Source of the DNA: Peristeroidobacter agariperforans | Lineage (GTDB): Bacteria > Pseudomonadota > Gammaproteobacteria > Steroidobacterales > Steroidobacteraceae | Direction: 5' to 3' | Assembly: GCF_004138335.1 (NCBI RefSeq) | Contig: NZ_RYFW01000002.1 | Coordinates: 353,501-417,500 of the forward strand | Length of the DNA stretch: 64,000 bases | In this document: piece by piece, positions 22,295 to 30,604 of the stretch | How the letters are laid out: every line of letters starts with the position of its first letter | Position numbering within the stretch: position 1 is the stretch's first letter | The notes under the pieces: generated by a model | What the model was told of the DNA's origin: nothing | Database searches by the model: none | Seen by the model: the letters and a program-made list of their open reading frames with translations, nothing else | Translations under genes and position numbers: made by a program

Positions 22295-22437
22295 GAAAAT
22301 CTCCGTCAGGGCGTGCGCGGATCGCGGTGCGCCGCGCACCAAGTCTTCTTAACCACGCAGCGCGCTCAAAGTTCGATCGTGCCGTCCGCACCGTCGGTAA
22401 TTCTGGAACACCCTCGTCAAGGGCAGCGTTGTTCTGC

Positions 22438-23541
22438 GTGCCCTCATCCAACGACAAGTGCGCCAAGCCTGCTGTGCCCGAGCCGAGAAAACTCGGCGTG
22501 TCGGCCCAGATCGACCAGGACACCTTCCGAACGCGCTTCCGTCAGCGCTTTTACGATCCCGCCTTCGAAGGCTCGATGGCGCAGATCGATGCGCTGGCAG
22601 AGCTTGCCTGGGAGGCATATCACGAGGGCCGCAAAGCGCCTCGCACCCGCGCGGCCGGTCCGGAGTTCGAGAATCCCGAATATCAGCTCTCCGAGCAATG
22701 GCTGCAGGCGCGCGATGAAATTCGCAAAGCGCAGCGCGTGCACGAGGATGCGAAGGGCCCGGCTCGGATACTGCTGATCAACGGCGCGGCGCGCCACGAG
22801 CAGACCTGTCCGGGCGAGGTGTCGAAGAGCTATCGCTTGTGTCAGGAGGCGGAGCAAACGTTGGTGGCCGAGCGAACGATCGTCGATCTGCTCGATCTGA
22901 GTCATCTGACGGCCGAGTACGGCCGCGTGATCTATCCGTGCAAGGCTTGTGTCGCGACCGCGATGCCGCTGTGTCATTGGCCGTGCTCGTGCTACCCCAA
23001 TCATTCGCTCGGTCAGCTCAACGATTGGATGAACGAGATCTATCCGCGCTGGGTGGCCGCCCATGGCGTGATGATCGTGACGCCGGTGTACTGGTATCAA
23101 GCGCCGTCGCCGTTGAAGCTGATGATCGATCGCCTGGTGTGCGCCGACGGCGGCAACCCGGATCCCACGCGCACTGACGGAAAGAATGCGAAGAAGGCGA
23201 AAGCCATCGAGCTGGAGGGCTGGGACTATCCGCGACACCTCAAAGGACGCGCGTTCTCGACGGTCGTGCACGGCGATGCCGTCGGTGCCGAAACGTTACG
23301 TCGCAATCTGCACGACTGGCTGTGTGACATGGAGCTCGTGCCGGCCGGGGGCGACGCGAATATCGATCGCTATATTGGTTACTACGAGCCGTATGCGACC
23401 AGCCACGTGGCGCTCGACAAGGACCAAGCGATTCAGCAGGAAGTTCGCAATGCAGCCCGTCTGTTGCTGCAGACGGTGACTCGGGTGCGAACGGCCGGGC
23501 CGCCGAAGGACGACGGCGTGCGCGATCCCCGCCCAAAGTAG
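22438..23541 (+). CDS. Flavodoxin-fold NAD(P)H-dependent FMN oxidoreductase, Cys-rich
   Basis: About 367 residues. An N-terminal extension of about 100 residues precedes a flavodoxin-like fold (ILLINGAARHEQTC, then MIVTPVYWYQAPSPLK for FMN/substrate). Between these is a Cys cluster, PCKACVATAMPLCHWPCSC, with two CxxC-like pairs that could hold a metal or form redox disulfides. The family reduces quinones or other small molecules; the substrate is unknown. Start is uncertain: GTG 22438, 22474 and 22498 are all possible, and upstream codons look non-coding. Confidence 0.82.
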   Translation: MPSSNDKCAKPAVPEPRKLGVSAQIDQDTFRTRFRQRFYDPAFEGSMAQIDALAELAWEAYHEGRKAPRTRAAGPEFENPEYQLSEQWLQARDEIRKAQRVHEDAKGPARILLINGAARHEQTCPGEVSKSYRLCQEAEQTLVAERTIVDLLDLSHLTAEYGRVIYPCKACVATAMPLCHWPCSCYPNHSLGQLNDWMNEIYPRWVAAHGVMIVTPVYWYQAPSPLKLMIDRLVCADGGNPDPTRTDGKNAKKAKAIELEGWDYPRHLKGRAFSTVVHGDAVGAETLRRNLHDWLCDMELVPAGGDANIDRYIGYYEPYATSHVALDKDQAIQQEVRNAARLLLQTVTRVRTAGPPKDDGVRDPRPK

Positions 23542-23567: not shown

Positions 23568-23644
23568 TTTAGCTCCAGCAGGCCATGCGGTTGCATGGGA
23601 GGCGGCTTCGCGCCATCCTGCCGCGCAGTCCAACGGAGACCTCA

Positions 23645-24418
23645 ATGAGCGAAGTCCTATACGAAGAGCGCGGCCGGGTCGCGATCGTCACGCTGAATCG
23701 CGCCGATGCACTCAACACGTTCACTCAGCAGATGCGCATCGGCATCATCGATGCGTTCAAGAAAATCGCGGCCGCTGCGCACATTCGCGCCGCAGTCCTG
23801 ACCGGCGCAGGGCGCGGTTTCAGCGCCGGCGCCGATCTCAACAGCTTGCCGCCTTCCGGCGAGCAGGTGGCCGCGATGCTGGAAAAGGAGTTCGGTCCGG
23901 GCATTCTCGCTATCGCCGAGCTGCCGAAGCCCGTTATCGGCGCGGTGAACGGTTTCGCCAGCGGCATCGGCGCCGGCTATGCGCTCGCCTGCGACATGCT
24001 GGTGATGGGCGAGAAATCGTTCCTGCAATTGCCTTTTGCGAAAATCGGCCTGGTGCCCGACGGCGGTCTCACCTGGCAATTCGCCCAGCGTGTCGGCGCG
24101 CGGCACGCGTTTGAACTGGCGCTCATCGGCGACCGCGTTCCGGCAGCTCGTTGTGTCGAACTGGGCCTGGCGAATCGAGTGGTGCCGGATGCCGAGCTGA
24201 TCAACGAAACGTTGGCGCTCGCCGAGAAGTTGGCCGACGCGGCGCCATTGGCCTTGGCGGGCACGAAGCAACTGCTTCGTCGAGCGCACGCGTTGGACCT
24301 CGCCGGCGCCATCCGCGAAGAAGGAGCGATCCAGAAAGTTTGCATCGACAGCCAGGACTTCCGCGAGGGCGTGAAAGCGTTCTTCGACAAGCGGCCGGCG
24401 CAGTTCACGGGCCGCTGA
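23645..24418 (+). CDS. Enoyl-CoA hydratase/isomerase family protein (PaaG-like)
   Basis: 257 residues from ATG 23645 with GGAG upstream. Crotonase fold: oxyanion-hole segment AGRGFSAGADLNS and second loop NGFASGIGAGYALACD. The two Glu residues of true hydratases are not conserved (Gly and a non-acidic residue instead). In their place GLVPDGG supplies Asp139, the pattern of PaaG and delta3,delta2-enoyl-CoA isomerases. It is therefore more likely an isomerase of unsaturated or epoxide-derived acyl-CoAs than a hydratase. The cofE gene starts 8 bases after its stop. Confidence 0.88.
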   Translation: MSEVLYEERGRVAIVTLNRADALNTFTQQMRIGIIDAFKKIAAAAHIRAAVLTGAGRGFSAGADLNSLPPSGEQVAAMLEKEFGPGILAIAELPKPVIGAVNGFASGIGAGYALACDMLVMGEKSFLQLPFAKIGLVPDGGLTWQFAQRVGARHAFELALIGDRVPAARCVELGLANRVVPDAELINETLALAEKLADAAPLALAGTKQLLRRAHALDLAGAIREEGAIQKVCIDSQDFREGVKAFFDKRPAQFTGR

Positions 24419-24426
24419 TTCGGCCG

Positions 24427-25188
24427 GTGAAATCCGTCGTTTTCACTGCCCTGTCGGGATTGTCCGAAATCATCGCGGGGCAGGACCTGTCGCAGACGAT
24501 TGCGACAGCCGTCGAAGGCGCGGGGTTGGCGCCCGCGCCGTTCGATGTGATCGTCGTCGCGCAGAAAATTGTTTCTAAAGCCGAAGGGCGCGTCGTCGAC
24601 TTGCGCTCGATCACGCCGTCGGCCCGCGCTCTGGAGCTGGCGGCCCGAACTCGCAAGGACGCACGCTTGGTGGAAGTCGTGTTGTCGGAATCGCAGGAGG
24701 TGATGCGTGCCGTGCCCAATGTGCTGATCGTGCGCCATCGGCTCGGGTATGTGATGGCGAACGCAGGCGTCGATCGTTCGAACGTGCCAGGCGCCGCGCA
24801 GGACCAGGTGTTGTTGCTGCCTCGAGATCCGGACGCATCCGCCGAGCGTTTGCGGAATGAGCTGAGCAGCCGCTGGCAAGTCCCCGTGGCGGTGCTGATC
24901 AGCGACAGTTTTGGCCGGGCCTGGCGTAACGGCGTCGTAAATGTCGCCATCGGAGCGGCCGGACTGCCATCCATTATCGACCGTCGAGGCGAATATGACA
25001 GGGAAGGTCGCGCGCTGGAAATGACGGAGGTCGGCTTGGCCGACGCCCTCGCTGCCGGCGCCGCGTTGGTCATGGGTGAAGCTAACGAGGGAACTCCAGT
25101 GGTGATCGCACGAGGACTGCAATGGACAGCGAGTGAACGTAACGCAGCGGCGTTGCTGCGCTCCAAGGATCAGGATCTATTCCAATGA
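24427..25188 (+). CDS. cofE: Coenzyme F420-0:L-glutamate ligase
   Basis: 253 residues from GTG 24427; longer in-frame readings run back into the isomerase gene. CofE signatures: VVAQKIVSKAEGR near residue 45, the metal/GTP region LISDSFGRAWRNG, and GEANEGTPVV at the C-terminus. It adds L-glutamate, using GTP, to F420-0 to start the gamma-glutamyl tail. It lacks the C-terminal flavin domain of mycobacterial FbiB. The gene overlaps cofD by 4 bases (ATGA, 25185-25188), strong evidence for joint function. F420 genes are uncommon in Proteobacteria but have been reported in several lineages. Confidence 0.93.
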   Translation: MKSVVFTALSGLSEIIAGQDLSQTIATAVEGAGLAPAPFDVIVVAQKIVSKAEGRVVDLRSITPSARALELAARTRKDARLVEVVLSESQEVMRAVPNVLIVRHRLGYVMANAGVDRSNVPGAAQDQVLLLPRDPDASAERLRNELSSRWQVPVAVLISDSFGRAWRNGVVNVAIGAAGLPSIIDRRGEYDREGRALEMTEVGLADALAAGAALVMGEANEGTPVVIARGLQWTASERNAAALLRSKDQDLFQ

Positions 25189-26126
25189 CGCAGGTACTGG
25201 CGCTGTCAGGAGGGATCGGCGGGGCCAAGCTCGCCGTGGGTTTACAACGTGTGTTGTTTCCCGGGGAGCTCACCGTCGCGGTCAACACCGGCGACGATTT
25301 CGAACACCTTGGGCTGGCGATCTCGCCCGATCTCGACACCATGATCTATACATTGGCCGGCATGCAGAACCCGGAGCTGGGCTGGGGCCGCGCCAACGAG
25401 AGCTGGAATTTCATGGCGGAAATCGAGCGGCTGGGCGGCGAGCACTGGTTCCGGCTCGGCGACAAGGATCTGGCGGTCCACATCGAGCGCACCCGCCGCC
25501 TCAATGCTGGCGAAAAGCTGTCGGGTATCACTGCCGACTTCGCGCGCCACTTCGGCATCCTGGGCAAGGTGGTGCCAATGACGAACGACCTGGTGCGCAC
25601 GATGGTGGTCACCGACGAGGGCACGCTGGATTTTCAGCACTACTTCGTCGGTCGGCGCTGCGAGCCGGCGGTCAAGGGACTGGCCTACGCCGGCGCGGCC
25701 GATGCGCAGCTGGTGCCCTTTGTGCAGGAGGCGGTGGAAGATCCGTCGCTGCAAGCCATCGTGATCTGCCCGTCGAATCCCTGGCTGAGCATCGGCCCGT
25801 TCCTGGAGATGCCCGCGTGGCGCCAGCTCCTGGTGGAAGCGACGGTGCCGGTAATTGCAGTATCGCCGCTGGTGAATGGTCAGGCGGTCAAGGGGCCGAC
25901 AACCAAGATCATGAGCGAGCTGCAGCTCGAGCAGTCCTCGGCGACCATAGCGCGCTTCTATGAGGGCATCATCGACGGCCTCGTGCTCGACAGGTCGGAA
26001 GCGCACCTGGCGCCGCAAATCAGCATGGCCACGCACGTCACGGCGACGCTGATGAAGACAGCGACGGACAAGCAACGTCTGGCCCGGGAAGTGATGGACT
26101 TTGCCCGCTCGTTTAGCAAGTTGTAG
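25185..26126 (+). CDS. cofD: 2-phospho-L-lactate (or related) transferase, F420 biosynthesis
   Basis: 313 residues. CofD landmarks are LSGGIGGAKLAVGL at the N-terminus, VNTGDDFEHLGLAISPDLDT, and PVIAVSPLVNGQAVKGP. The enzyme transfers the phospho-linker from a guanylylated precursor to the deazaflavin Fo. The linker can come from 2-phospholactate, PEP or 3-phosphoglycerate in different lineages; which one is used here cannot be read by eye. FO synthase (cofG/cofH or fbiC) and cofC are not in the window. The ferredoxin gene follows 69 bases later. Confidence 0.94.
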   Translation: MTQVLALSGGIGGAKLAVGLQRVLFPGELTVAVNTGDDFEHLGLAISPDLDTMIYTLAGMQNPELGWGRANESWNFMAEIERLGGEHWFRLGDKDLAVHIERTRRLNAGEKLSGITADFARHFGILGKVVPMTNDLVRTMVVTDEGTLDFQHYFVGRRCEPAVKGLAYAGAADAQLVPFVQEAVEDPSLQAIVICPSNPWLSIGPFLEMPAWRQLLVEATVPVIAVSPLVNGQAVKGPTTKIMSELQLEQSSATIARFYEGIIDGLVLDRSEAHLAPQISMATHVTATLMKTATDKQRLAREVMDFARSFSKL

Positions 26127-26195: not shown

Positions 26196-26513
26196 ATGAG
26201 TATTCGGTTGAGCGTGGTGGACCGCAACGGCGGCGAGCACGAGGTGGAAACGGCGCCGGAAGGCTCTTTGATGGAAACGCTGCGCGAATTGGACTACGGC
26301 GTCAGCGCCATCTGCGGCGGCATGTGCTCGTGCGCCACCTGTCACGTTTATATCGCTCCGGAATGGCTCGCGAAGCTGCCCGATCGGCAGAGCGATGAAG
26401 GCGATCTGCTGGCCGAGCTGCAGTTCCGTCAGGACAACTCGCGGCTGTCGTGCCAGATTCAGTTGCAGCAGGAACACGACGGTCTGCGCCTGACGCTCGC
26501 TCCCGAAGAATGA
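26196..26513 (+). CDS. 2Fe-2S ferredoxin (adrenodoxin/putidaredoxin type)
   Basis: 105 residues. The cluster ligands follow the Cx5Cx2C pattern in CGGMCSCATC, with the fourth Cys in RLSCQIQL. The fold and length match the vertebrate/putidaredoxin type that serves cytochrome P450s and some dehydrogenases, rather than plant-type ferredoxins. GGAG precedes the ATG. The reductase gene starts 21 bases later, so the two form an electron-transfer pair. No P450 or oxygenase is in the window. Confidence 0.93.
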   Translation: MSIRLSVVDRNGGEHEVETAPEGSLMETLRELDYGVSAICGGMCSCATCHVYIAPEWLAKLPDRQSDEGDLLAELQFRQDNSRLSCQIQLQQEHDGLRLTLAPEE

Positions 26514-26534: not shown

Positions 26535-27815
26535 ATGTCCGACACGCACACTGAAGATCACATCTATATCGTTGGCGCGGGCCACGCCGGCGGCGAGCTT
26601 GCGTTCGCGTTACGTCAACAAGGTTATGCCGGTCCGTTGACGATCGTCGGCGACGAATCTCATCTGCCGTATCAACGGCCGCCGCTGTCGAAAGCCTATC
26701 TGAAAGGCGAGTGCGAGGCGACGTCGCTGTACCTGCGGCAGCTGGCCGCGTATGAGAAAGCAAACATCAGCTTGGTATTGAGCCGCCGGGTCGAGCGTAT
26801 CGACCGCGCGAACAAGAAGCTGGTGTTCGACGACGGCCGCGAAGTCACCTATTCGAAGCTTGCGCTGGCGACTGGCGGACGCGCGCGTCGCATGACCATC
26901 AACGATGCAGCTCGCGCCGAGCGGACCAGCAACTTCCGTTATCTGCGCAACATCGATGACGTGATGGCGATTCGCGCGCGCTTTGAAGCCGGGCAGCGCC
27001 TTGTCGTTATTGGCGGTGGTTACGTTGGGTTGGAAGTTGCTGCTTCGGCAATCGCGCGCGGCGTGAAAGTCACCGTGCTCGAGGCGCTGCCTCGCGTGTT
27101 GGCGCGCGTCACGGCGCCGCAGATGTCTCAGTTCTATGAAAAGGTGCACCGTGACGCTGGCGTCGATCTGCGCACCAACATCGAAGTCACGGGTCTGGAA
27201 TTCAATGCCGCTGGCGATGCGGTTACAGCGGTTCACTGCACCGGCGGCGTGGTGATTCCTGCTGATTTCGTCGTTGTCGGCATCGGCTTGTTGCCCAACA
27301 CCGAAGTGGCGCAGGCGGCGGGCCTGGATGTCGACAACGGCATAGTGGTCAACGAGTACGCCGTCACCTCCGATCCGGACATCGTCGCTGCGGGCGACTG
27401 CACGAATCATCCGAGCGTGTTCTGCGGCCGGCGCATTCGTCTGGAGTCGGTGCCGAATGCGGTCGAACAGGCTCGCGTCGCTGCAGCTTCGCTCGCCGGC
27501 AAACCGAAGGCCTATGACTCGGTGCCGTGGTTCTGGTCCGACCAATACGATCTGAAATTGCAAATGACGGGGCTGTCGCAAGGCTACGATCAGTTCGTGC
27601 TGCGCGGTTCGATGGAGAACAAGTCGTTCGCCGCCTTCTATCTGAAGCAGGGCCGGCTGATCGCTGTCGACGCCGTCAATCGTGCGCAGGAATTCATGGT
27701 CGCCAAGCGCATGGTCGTAGCGTGTAAACCGTTCGACCCCGCGGTGCTCGCCGATGAGTCGGTGCCGCTGAAGACCCTTGCCGGGCCTGTACAGGCCGCC
27801 GCGCCCCAAGCCTGA
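26535..27815 (+). CDS. FAD-dependent NAD(P)H:ferredoxin reductase
   Basis: 426 residues, standard for the CamA/ThcD/AndAa class. FAD motif VGAGHAGGELA at the start, NAD(P) motif VIGGGYVGLEVAA near residue 157, and the FAD-closing PDIVAAGDCTNHPSV near 280. The C-terminal domain (VPWFWSDQYDLKLQM) is the ferredoxin-facing part. It passes electrons from NADH or NADPH to the adjacent ferredoxin. It is adjacent to the F420 genes; a link between the two systems is inference. Confidence 0.93.
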   Translation: MSDTHTEDHIYIVGAGHAGGELAFALRQQGYAGPLTIVGDESHLPYQRPPLSKAYLKGECEATSLYLRQLAAYEKANISLVLSRRVERIDRANKKLVFDDGREVTYSKLALATGGRARRMTINDAARAERTSNFRYLRNIDDVMAIRARFEAGQRLVVIGGGYVGLEVAASAIARGVKVTVLEALPRVLARVTAPQMSQFYEKVHRDAGVDLRTNIEVTGLEFNAAGDAVTAVHCTGGVVIPADFVVVGIGLLPNTEVAQAAGLDVDNGIVVNEYAVTSDPDIVAAGDCTNHPSVFCGRRIRLESVPNAVEQARVAAASLAGKPKAYDSVPWFWSDQYDLKLQMTGLSQGYDQFVLRGSMENKSFAAFYLKQGRLIAVDAVNRAQEFMVAKRMVVACKPFDPAVLADESVPLKTLAGPVQAAAPQA

Positions 27816-27851: not shown

Positions 27852-27987
27852 CTTCGGGAAGACCCCATTGTTCGCAAGGACGCTGTGCTGGCCTTGTGGC
27901 AAAGTGGCGGCGGCGCTTCGGCGCGCTGCTGCCGAAGGGAAAAATTTTAGGGCAAATCGCCATCTCAATCCTTTTTGGGGGCTCGCG

Positions 27988-29145
27988 ATGACCGAAGCAA
28001 CTTCGACCACCGGCTTCAAACCGAAGAAGTCCGTCGCACTGTCCGGCGTCACCGCCGGAAATACCGCGCTGTGTACCGTCGGACGCAGCGGCAACGATCT
28101 GCACTATCGCGGTTATGACATCCTCGATATCGCCAACAGCTGCGAGTTCGAGGAAATCGCGTACCTGCTGATTCACGGCAAATTGCCGAATCACGCCGAG
28201 CTCGCCAGTTACAAAGCCAAGCTGTCACGTTTGCGCGGTTTGCCTGCGGCTGTCAAAGCCGTGCTCGAGCAATTGCCCGCGGCGGCGCATCCGATGGATG
28301 TAATGCGAACTGGCGTGTCGACGCTGGGCTGTGTGCTGCCTGAGCCCGAACATCACAGCGCGGCCGCGGCTCGTGACATTGCCGATCGGCTCATCGCCAG
28401 CCTCGGCTCCATGCTCGCGTATTGGTATCACTACAGTCATCACGGCCGTCGCATCGACGTGGACACCGGTGACGATTCGATCGGCGGGCATTTCCTGCAC
28501 TTGTTGCACCAGGAAACGCCGTCGCGCGAGTGGGTGCACGCGATGCATACATCGCTCATCCTCTATGCCGAGCATGAGTTCAATGCGTCGACGTTCACGG
28601 CGCGCGTCATAGCGGGCACCGGTTCGGATATGTATTCCGCGATCACCGGCGCGATCGGCGCACTGCGCGGTCCGAAGCATGGCGGTGCGAATGAAGTCGC
28701 GTTCGAAATCCAGCAGCGCTACGACTCGCCCGAGCAGGCCGACGAAGACATCCGCAAGCGGGTGGGGAACAAGGAAGTGATCATCGGCTTCGGCCATCCG
28801 GTCTATACGATCTCCGATCCGCGCAATGAGGTCATCAAGGAAGTCGCACGCACGCTGGCACAGGATGCGGGCGACACCAAGATGTTCGATATCGCGGCGC
28901 GGCTGGAACAGACGATGAAAGAGATCAAGAACATGTTCCCGAACCTGGACTGGTACTCGGCGGTGTCGTATCACCTGATGGGCGTGCCGACCTCCATGTT
29001 TACTCCGCTGTTCGTCATCGCTCGCACGACTGGCTGGGCCGCGCACGTCATCGAACAGCGCGAGGACGGCAAGATCATCCGGCCGAGCGCGAACTACGTC
29101 GGGCCGGAGAACCTCGAGTTCGTGCCGCTCGACCAGAGGAAATGA
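27988..29145 (+). CDS. prpC: 2-methylcitrate synthase / citrate synthase family
   Basis: 385 residues from ATG 27988, preceded by GGGGG; upstream codons look non-coding. Citrate synthase catalytic elements: His in [17 protein letters not shown] region, the conserved GPKHGGANE, and [13 protein letters not shown] holding the second His and following Asp. Length and sequence fit PrpC rather than the larger hexameric GltA. It condenses propionyl-CoA with oxaloacetate. prpD begins 4 bases after its stop, which supports the methylcitrate role. Confidence 0.9.
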
Positions 29146-29149
29146 ACAG

Positions 29150-30604
29150 ATGGCGCATCACGATCTCAAATCGGCAGAACGTCCGGCCCCGGACGAGATA
29201 TTGCAGGCGATTGCCGATTACGCGCTGTCGTATCAGGTCGACAGCGAGGCCGCTTACGAGACCGCGTATTACTGCTTGATGGATACGTTGGCCTGCGGCT
29301 TCCAGGCCCTGCAGTATCCGGCGTGCACTAAGTTGTTGGGGCCGGTGGTGCCTGGAGCGGTGATGCCGGGTGGATCGCGAGTGCCAGGTACGAGCTATGA
29401 GCTCGACCCGGTGCAGGCGGCGTTCAACATCGGCGCGATGGTTCGCTGGCTCGATTTCAACGACACCTGGCTGGCGGCGGAATGGGGACATCCATCCGAC
29501 AATCTCGGCGGCATTCTCGCGGTCGCGGATTACATGGCGCGGCGCAGTGGCGCACAGGGCAAGGTGTCGCTGAGGGTGAGAGATGTGCTCACCGCCATGA
29601 TCAAGGCGCATGAGATTCAGGGCGTGGGCGCGCTGGAGAATAGTTTCAATCGCGTTGGATTGGATCACGTATTGCTGGTGCGGCTCGCCTCTACGGCGGT
29701 GACGACCGCGATGCTCGGCGGCTCGCGAGAGCAGGTGATCAACGCAGTCTCGAACGCGTTCGTCGATGGCGGCGCGTTGCGCACCTATCGTCACGCCCCG
29801 AACACCGGGTCCCGAAAGAGCTGGGCGGCGGGGGATGCGACCAGCCGGGCGGTGAGGCATGCGTTGATGGCGATGGCGGATGAGATGGGATATCCGTCGG
29901 CGGTCACGGCGTCGACGTGGGGTTTCCAGGATGTGCTGATGAAAGGCAAGCCGCTGTCGTTCCCGCAGGCCTTCGGCAGCTACGTGATGGAAAACATCCT
30001 GTTCAAGATTTCCTTCCCGGCGGAATTCCACGGCCAGACGGCGGTGGAGGCGGCGATGAAGCTGCATCCGCAGGTGAAGCGCCACATCGACGATATCGAG
30101 CGCGTTGTGATCGAGACGCAGGAATCGGGCGTGCGAATCATCGATAAGACGGGCCCGCTCGATAATCCCGCGGATCGCGATCATTGCATTCAGTACATGG
30201 TCGCGATTGCACTGATCTTCGGTCGGCTCTCAGCATCCGACTACGAGGACGCGACGGCAAGCGATCCGCGCATCGATGCGTTACGAGAGAAGATGGTCGT
30301 GAGCGAGAATACGAGCTTCACGGAGGAGTACTACGCGCCGGATAAGCGATACATCGGCAACGCGGTGCAAGTGTTCTTCAGGGACGGCACCAGGACCGAG
30401 CGGGTGCAGGTCGATGTTCCGCTAGGTCACCGCACGCGTCGGGCAGAGGGCATGCCGGTGCTCGTGCAGAAATTCGAAGCCTCCGTAGCCGCGCACTTTT
30501 CGCCGAAGCAAACCGAGGCAATCAAAGCGATGTTTGCCGATCGGGGGAGGCTGGAGAAGATGCCGGTGCAGGAGTTCGTGGCGGGGTTGGTGAAAAACAA
30601 GTGA
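29150..30604 (+). CDS. prpD: 2-methylcitrate dehydratase (MmgE/PrpD family)
   Basis: 484 residues, the standard PrpD length. Family motifs include [35 protein letters not shown] and [14 protein letters not shown]. It dehydrates 2-methylcitrate to 2-methyl-cis-aconitate. AGAGGAA precedes the ATG. The aconitase-type hydratase and methylisocitrate lyase (prpB) of the cycle are not next to it, so they must be encoded elsewhere if the cycle is complete. Confidence 0.93.

Follow-up and report, generated by a model that had tools for sequence, protein, structure and literature searches.

The locus considered here raises the question of whether a gammaproteobacterium of the Steroidobacter group makes coenzyme F420 and, if so, from which linker acid and for which enzymes. 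In a 64,000-nucleotide stretch of the Peristeroidobacter agariperforans genome (the window), a preliminary description had recognized two overlapping genes, cofE and cofD (Table 1), as F420 biosynthesis genes of a proteobacterial genome, and had regarded F420 in Proteobacteria as sparsely described.

Table 1. Features of the window around cofE–cofD, and proteins of the source genome (G000) that bear on F420 use
Feature	Location	Strand	Details
Enoyl-CoA hydratase/isomerase family gene	23585..24418	+	PF00378, 186 bits; directly upstream of cofE, its stop 8 bp before the GTG start of cofE
cofE, coenzyme F420-0:L-glutamate ligase	24427..25188	+	253 aa; GTG start; TGA at 25186-25188; TIGR01916, PF01996
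cofD, 2-phospho-L-lactate transferase family	25185..26126	+	313 aa; ATG start at 25185; TIGR01819, PF01933
2Fe-2S ferredoxin	26196..26513	+	PF00111, 37.7 bits; 69 bp behind the end of cofD; neighbour only
Ferredoxin--NAD(+) reductase type flavoprotein	26535..27815	+	PF07992, PF14759; neighbour only
LLM1	G000		TIGR03557, F420 type; 424.3 bits, cut-off 210.4
Second PF00296 protein	G000		MsnO8 type
Third PF00296 protein	G000		Over TIGR03885 cut-off; FMN-dependent according to NCBIfam
Three PF01243 proteins	G000		PdxH; two matching an FMN-dependent family, one above its cut-off and the other below
Fourth PF01243 protein	G000		49.1 bits against the Rv1155 F420 family, cut-off 79.05

The identity of the two genes is clear. 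They overlap by 4 bp (ATGA at 25185-25188) and carry full family motifs (QKIVSKAEGR in CofE, GGIGGAKLA in CofD), as had been claimed, and both products score above the curated family cut-offs: CofE scores 266.1 bits against TIGR01916 (cut-off 180.65) and CofD 272.2 bits against TIGR01819 (cut-off 257.45). The Pfam scores are 244.3 bits for PF01996, the sole Pfam match of CofE, and 136.2 bits for PF01933 in CofD. By the NCBIfam and Pfam profiles, CofE is a single-domain protein that lacks an FbiB-type nitroreductase domain. Both genes are under purifying selection, as four dN/dS values between 0.08 and 0.16 show (cofE 0.11 and cofD 0.08 against the close-relative genome G115; 0.11 and 0.16, respectively, against Peristeroidobacter soli). 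Among the matches listed, the closest named relative of CofD is that of Steroidobacter agaridevorans (L008), at 96% identity, and the CofD of P. soli (L009) is 85% identical. Since the named relatives that come closest belong to the gammaproteobacterial Steroidobacter group, the label of a proteobacterial genome is right.

The rest of the pathway lies on another contig of G000 (7.65 Mb in 17 contigs, 97.9% complete, 3.6% contamination). Open reading frames in this analysis were picked by script rather than by a gene finder, so that some starts are wrong and a few shadow frames are included. Genome searches found CofH at 505 bits and CofC at 81 bits, and these correspond to cofC and a CofG–CofH fusion, the FO synthase gene fbiC, side by side on contig C9. 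The fusion scores 1119.2 bits as CofGH (NF006687, cut-off 1018), its two halves score 495.5 bits (TIGR03550) and 554.6 bits (TIGR03551), both over cut-off, and both radical-SAM CxxxCxxC motifs are found; CofC scores 150.8 bits against TIGR03552 (cut-off 105). A gap of 4 bp separates the cofC stop from the likely start of fbiC. The preliminary description had proposed searching the genome for cofC and cofG/cofH or fbiC and had named the absence of FO synthase and cofC as a ground for giving up its assignment; since both are encoded, that objection falls away. Contamination is an unlikely source because the contigs with the two cof loci are long (3.2 and 1.9 Mb) and the surroundings of cofE–cofD are the same in two named relatives.

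In this Steroidobacter-like gammaproteobacterium, cofE and cofD very probably encode the two final steps of F420 biosynthesis. In the pathway that we infer from these protein families, the FO synthase of contig C9 would make FO, CofC would activate a C3 phospho-acid with GTP, CofD would transfer the activated acid onto FO, and CofE would add glutamates; the cofactor would then most likely serve LLM1, a luciferase-like oxidoreductase (LLM) of the TIGR03557 family. This arrangement resembles the way aerobic bacteria make F420 (CofC/FbiD, CofD/FbiA, CofE, and FbiC) in that all four enzymes are present over their cut-offs and in that CofG and CofH are fused, as in Proteobacteria and Actinobacteria according to the available text of the review PMC8498797. 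It differs in that the genes are split between two contigs, cofE–cofD on one and cofC–fbiC on the other, in that neither cof stretch contains an LLM gene, and in that no NADPH:F420 oxidoreductase (Fno) over cut-off is found in the genome. The assignments of the linker acid and of the consumer are less sure than that of the biosynthesis.

The gene order around cofE–cofD is conserved. The enoyl-CoA hydratase/isomerase gene is probably co-transcribed with cofE, and the order enoyl-CoA hydratase–cofE–cofD–ferredoxin is kept in S. agaridevorans and P. soli. A gap of 21 bp separates the ferredoxin gene from that of the flavoprotein, whose best NCBIfam match, NF041682, is below cut-off at 364 of 650 bits. 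Behind the latter, at 27976-30604, the window encodes a 2-methylcitrate synthase and a 2-methylcitrate dehydratase (PrpD), both over NCBIfam cut-offs. At 22366-23541 lies a gene for a protein of 391 aa in which a long N-terminal part, matching no family in the Pfam scan, precedes an FMN_red domain (PF03358, 49 bits).

What might use the cofactor? A search for luciferase-like F420 enzymes, also proposed earlier, yields one F420-type LLM in G000: three PF00296 proteins are present at E 0.001 or better, and of these only LLM1 is assigned to an F420 family (Table 1). LLM1 is not an equivalog of FGD (193.9 bits versus 420). It is 94% identical to its counterpart in G115, with a dN/dS of 0.06, and its other matches in 150 family genomes are at 33-43% identity. 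In both G000 and G115, the gene sits between an FAD-linked oxidase gene and a weak mechanosensitive-channel match, and these neighbors give no hint of a substrate. The four PF01243 proteins are listed in Table 1. A search of G000 for FDOR-A gave no match, but its control was equally silent, so that the empty result does not imply absence. Fno was not found in G000 (best TIGR01915 score 37.3 bits versus 149.8); a Fno-like gene occurs in the cof loci of 14 family genomes among the 31 whose loci were examined, and predicted alpha- and betaproteobacterial F420 producers encode Fno, according to the available text of PMC8498797.

Across the family, LLM number follows the F420 genes. When the four genomes with a single marker are left out and at most 13 candidates are scored per genome, at least one LLM gene is found in 44 of 44 F420-positive versus 50 of 102 F420-negative genomes, with medians of 3.5 and 0 (Mann–Whitney p 2e-19). 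An LLM gene also lies in 28 of 39 family cof stretches versus 1 of 20 control stretches, a comparison biased in favor of the cof stretches by LLM seeds that came partly from cof loci themselves; none was found in either cof stretch of G000. A genome of the same genus with the F420 pathway (G028, a single contig C1 of 3,467,246 bases) has at least 13 luciferase-like genes. Several of these, in loci L203-L206 and L208, stand among genes that, judged by eye from their first residues, resemble those of acyl-CoA dehydrogenases, CoA-transferases, and FAD steroid dehydrogenases.

Another possibility, which we consider doubtful but worth weighing, is that F420 in this family helps to break down CoA thioesters or steroids, the cof genes travelling with the genes for this catabolism. 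The cofC–fbiC pair of G000 adjoins genes for an acyl-CoA dehydrogenase, an enoyl-CoA hydratase, a thiolase, and a type III CoA-transferase, and cofE follows an enoyl-CoA hydratase gene. Acyl-CoA dehydrogenase genes occur in 11 of 39 cof loci and none of 20 controls (p 0.006), and enoyl-CoA hydratase genes in 13 of 39 versus 2 of 20 (p 0.047). A figure legend in the available text of PMC6678751 places cofC, cofD, and cofE among the cholesterol genes of Sterolibacterium denitrificans, where the cof block (SEDNCHOL_10763-10765) is likewise listed beside acyl-CoA catabolism genes. Thiolase genes, however, are found in 7 of 39 cof loci versus 1 of 20 controls (p 0.17), CoA-transferase genes show no excess (4 of 39 versus 4 of 20), and any of the four families occurs in 21 of 39 versus 6 of 20 (p 0.07); moreover, only 31 genomes supplied the 39 loci, which are thus non-independent, and the 20 controls are hand-placed stretches of 7 genomes. 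Catabolism as the cause of the linkage was kept as a weak rival, given the p value of 0.07 for the four families. The CofD proteins of three Sterolibacterium metagenome-assembled genomes fall elsewhere in the CofD tree.

The nature of the linker acid turns on CofC. According to the available text of PMC8764529, Ser162 is essential for the use of 3-phosphoglycerate (3-PG) by the CofC of Mycetohabitans, with Met91 and Cys95 helping, and each replacement of Ser162 but Thr moved the enzyme to 2-phospholactate (2-PL) and PEP. His145 was without effect in the enzyme from Mycetohabitans, whereas FbiD of M. smegmatis gained 3-PG activity only with both the serine and the equivalent of this histidine. 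The same text concludes that the CofC of Mycetohabitans stands apart from those of other Gram-negative bacteria and reports that all other CofCs, including those of Paracoccus and Oligotropha, use 2-PL best in the standard assay, that assays cannot show whether 2-PL or PEP serves as the substrate in vivo, and that the partner CofD selects among intermediates and shifts the outcome. Where Ser162 would stand, the CofC of G000 has Gly, and so have all 72 non-reference CofC rows of the alignment and two long rows that were dropped (L077 and L078); Ser or Thr is found there in none of them. Because of this glycine, 3-PG use is predicted for none of the 72. From one active-site residue of CofC, then, we predict PEP or 2-PL, and not 3-PG, as the linker acid, and our best guess is an ordinary F420 built from one of these two and used by LLM1.

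If PEP is the source of the linker, the product would be dehydro-F420, and a reductase would therefore be required. In mycobacteria, this reduction is assigned to the C-terminal domain of FbiB in the available texts of PMC6450877 and PMC7253369. As in the mycobacterial pathway from PEP (FbiD, FbiA, and FbiB), the CofC of G000 aligns a Gly with G163 of FbiD; unlike there, a nitroreductase domain is missing from CofE, and G000 yielded no homologue of the FbiB C-terminal domain over cut-off (best TIGR03553 score 53.9 bits, cut-off 249.55). The gap is not peculiar to this genome, since most other F420 producers also lack the domain (PMC7253369, available text). Three nitroreductases are present in G000 at E 0.001 or better, of which only one matches the FbiB C-terminal family. 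As candidates for the missing reductase, the first is BluB, over the BluB cut-off, and the second is nearest to NF008088 but under its cut-off. The third is nearest to PDB entry 7dp0, which is named only as a nitroreductase family protein; structure searches covered two of the three.

A distant or different reductase is possible in G000 because nitroreductases occur in other cof loci, as found with a profile built from the three G000 proteins, which may miss others. They lie about 0.5 kb or less from cofD in six Chloroflexi or Anaerolineales records (L046, L047, L073, L075, L083, and L085) and about 6 kb away in a seventh (L082); L038 and two Cupriavidus records (L040 and L058) also have such genes in their cof loci. 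The proteins in or beside the cof blocks of these records, L082 excepted, are candidates for separate dehydro-F420 reductases. Relatives of the third G000 nitroreductase are found in two family cof loci (G149 and G065). It is rather unlikely, on our estimate, that the mature cofactor would be dehydro-F420 or a mixed-linker F420, or that a novel reductase would complete the route from PEP.

Were the organism to make 3PG-F420 as Mycetohabitans does, with a CofC of the same clade, the missing dehydro-F420 reductase would be accounted for as well, and the failure to find an FbiB-type reductase over cut-off fits this idea. In a 75-row tree, the CofCs of G000, G115, G085, and G106 group with the Mycetohabitans 3-PG guanylyltransferase 7p97 with support of 99/99; 7p97 is the best match of the G000 protein in a structure search (105.8 bits versus 38.3 and 34.0 for the other two solved structures), and Met91 is common to the two. 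But the G000 protein has Gly, Ile, and Asp in place of Ser162, Cys95, and His145, and non-Thr replacements of Ser162 favor 2-PL and PEP in the available text of PMC8764529. In a pairwise ranking against 7p97, it is only fourth of 59, behind that of G085 and two unrelated rows. The grouping itself comes from rows sampled by CofD similarity, with 7p97 as the only 3-PG enzyme and L077 and L078 dropped beforehand; branching inside the group lacks resolution, and a clade of the four Steroidobacter CofCs without 7p97 stands unrejected (AU p 0.48). We thus regard 3PG-F420 as very improbable in this organism. Among the CofCs sampled, those of Steroidobacter stand nearest to the 3-PG-using enzyme, yet they have the glycine seen in enzymes that take 2-PL or PEP.

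The distribution of the genes speaks for the biosynthesis assignment as well. In a survey of 150 family genomes (thresholds of E 1e-50 for CofH and 1e-20 for CofE), each marker was found in 46; both occur in 44, one alone in 2 + 2, and neither in 102. The four single-marker genomes are 62-83% complete. Within the genus, 5 of 14 genomes have both. In a 99-row CofD tree, built as the preliminary description had advised and including one short row on a long branch, the family CofD proteins do not form one clade but require 8 changes, at least 6 of them forced by starred branches, and those of the genus fall in three separate places. The patchy distribution is probably due to transfer and loss, because family CofD falls in several places of the tree. 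Three metagenome-assembled records in it (L071, L055, and L081) are titled Klebsiella pneumoniae or Asaia bogorensis; their CofD groups with environmental Proteobacteria, and the titles are probably wrong.

The two cof loci of G000 also differ in divergence from the close relative G115. The dS values are 1.54 for cofC and 1.12 for fbiC, versus 0.21-0.44 for cofE, cofD, three neighbors, and LLM1. When G000 C9:2878183-2881270 is compared with G115 C9:34789-37773, together with about 59 kb on each side, only cofC–fbiC and one acyl-CoA dehydrogenase gene match, the former at 73-77% DNA identity and the latter at 93.6%. This pattern suggests that the cofC–fbiC pair may have been transferred, or replaced as an allele. 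In a fast FbiC tree, with two short rows far out, the proteins of G000, G115, G085, and G106 group together.

Least probable of all is that the pathway is decaying or supplies only FO (for example as a photolyase antenna), leaving CofC, CofD, and CofE of little use: the single F420-type LLM, the lack of a Fno hit over cut-off, the missing FDOR-A match (its control silent too), and the mere trace of F420 given for two Alphaproteobacteria in the available text of PMC8498797 would agree with it, but cofE and cofD are intact and under purifying selection, their gene order is kept in three species, and CofE accompanies CofH across the 150 genomes.

F420 in Proteobacteria is less unusual than the preliminary description implied: the review PMC8498797, in its available text, already reports it, and of 80 CofD relatives kept from at least 557 confirmed in the scan, 73 have titles pointing to Proteobacteria and 7 to Chloroflexi or Anaerolineales. 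For the Steroidobacter lineage, we found no account of F420 in the open-licence PMC literature, judged mostly by titles; the only paper joining the two terms was PMC6678751, whose sole F420 mention, in the text available, is the Sterolibacterium denitrificans figure legend. The pathway is an ordinary and already known one, in a lineage for which the searched open-licence PMC literature yielded no description.

The available text of PMC8498797 lists why Proteobacteria synthesize F420 among the unanswered questions and asks about variants in other lineages. The Steroidobacter group offers named strains, in a family where members with and without the F420 genes occur next to one another. The contrast in the number of consumers between G000 and its relatives is worth a second look, as are the placement of CofC and the missing reductase. 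The 3-PG enzyme can naturally be compared with the CofC of G000; dehydro-F420, a mixed linker, or a novel reductase, should any of them prove real, would each add a variant to F420 chemistry and put the origin of 3PG-F420 beside the Steroidobacter lineage.
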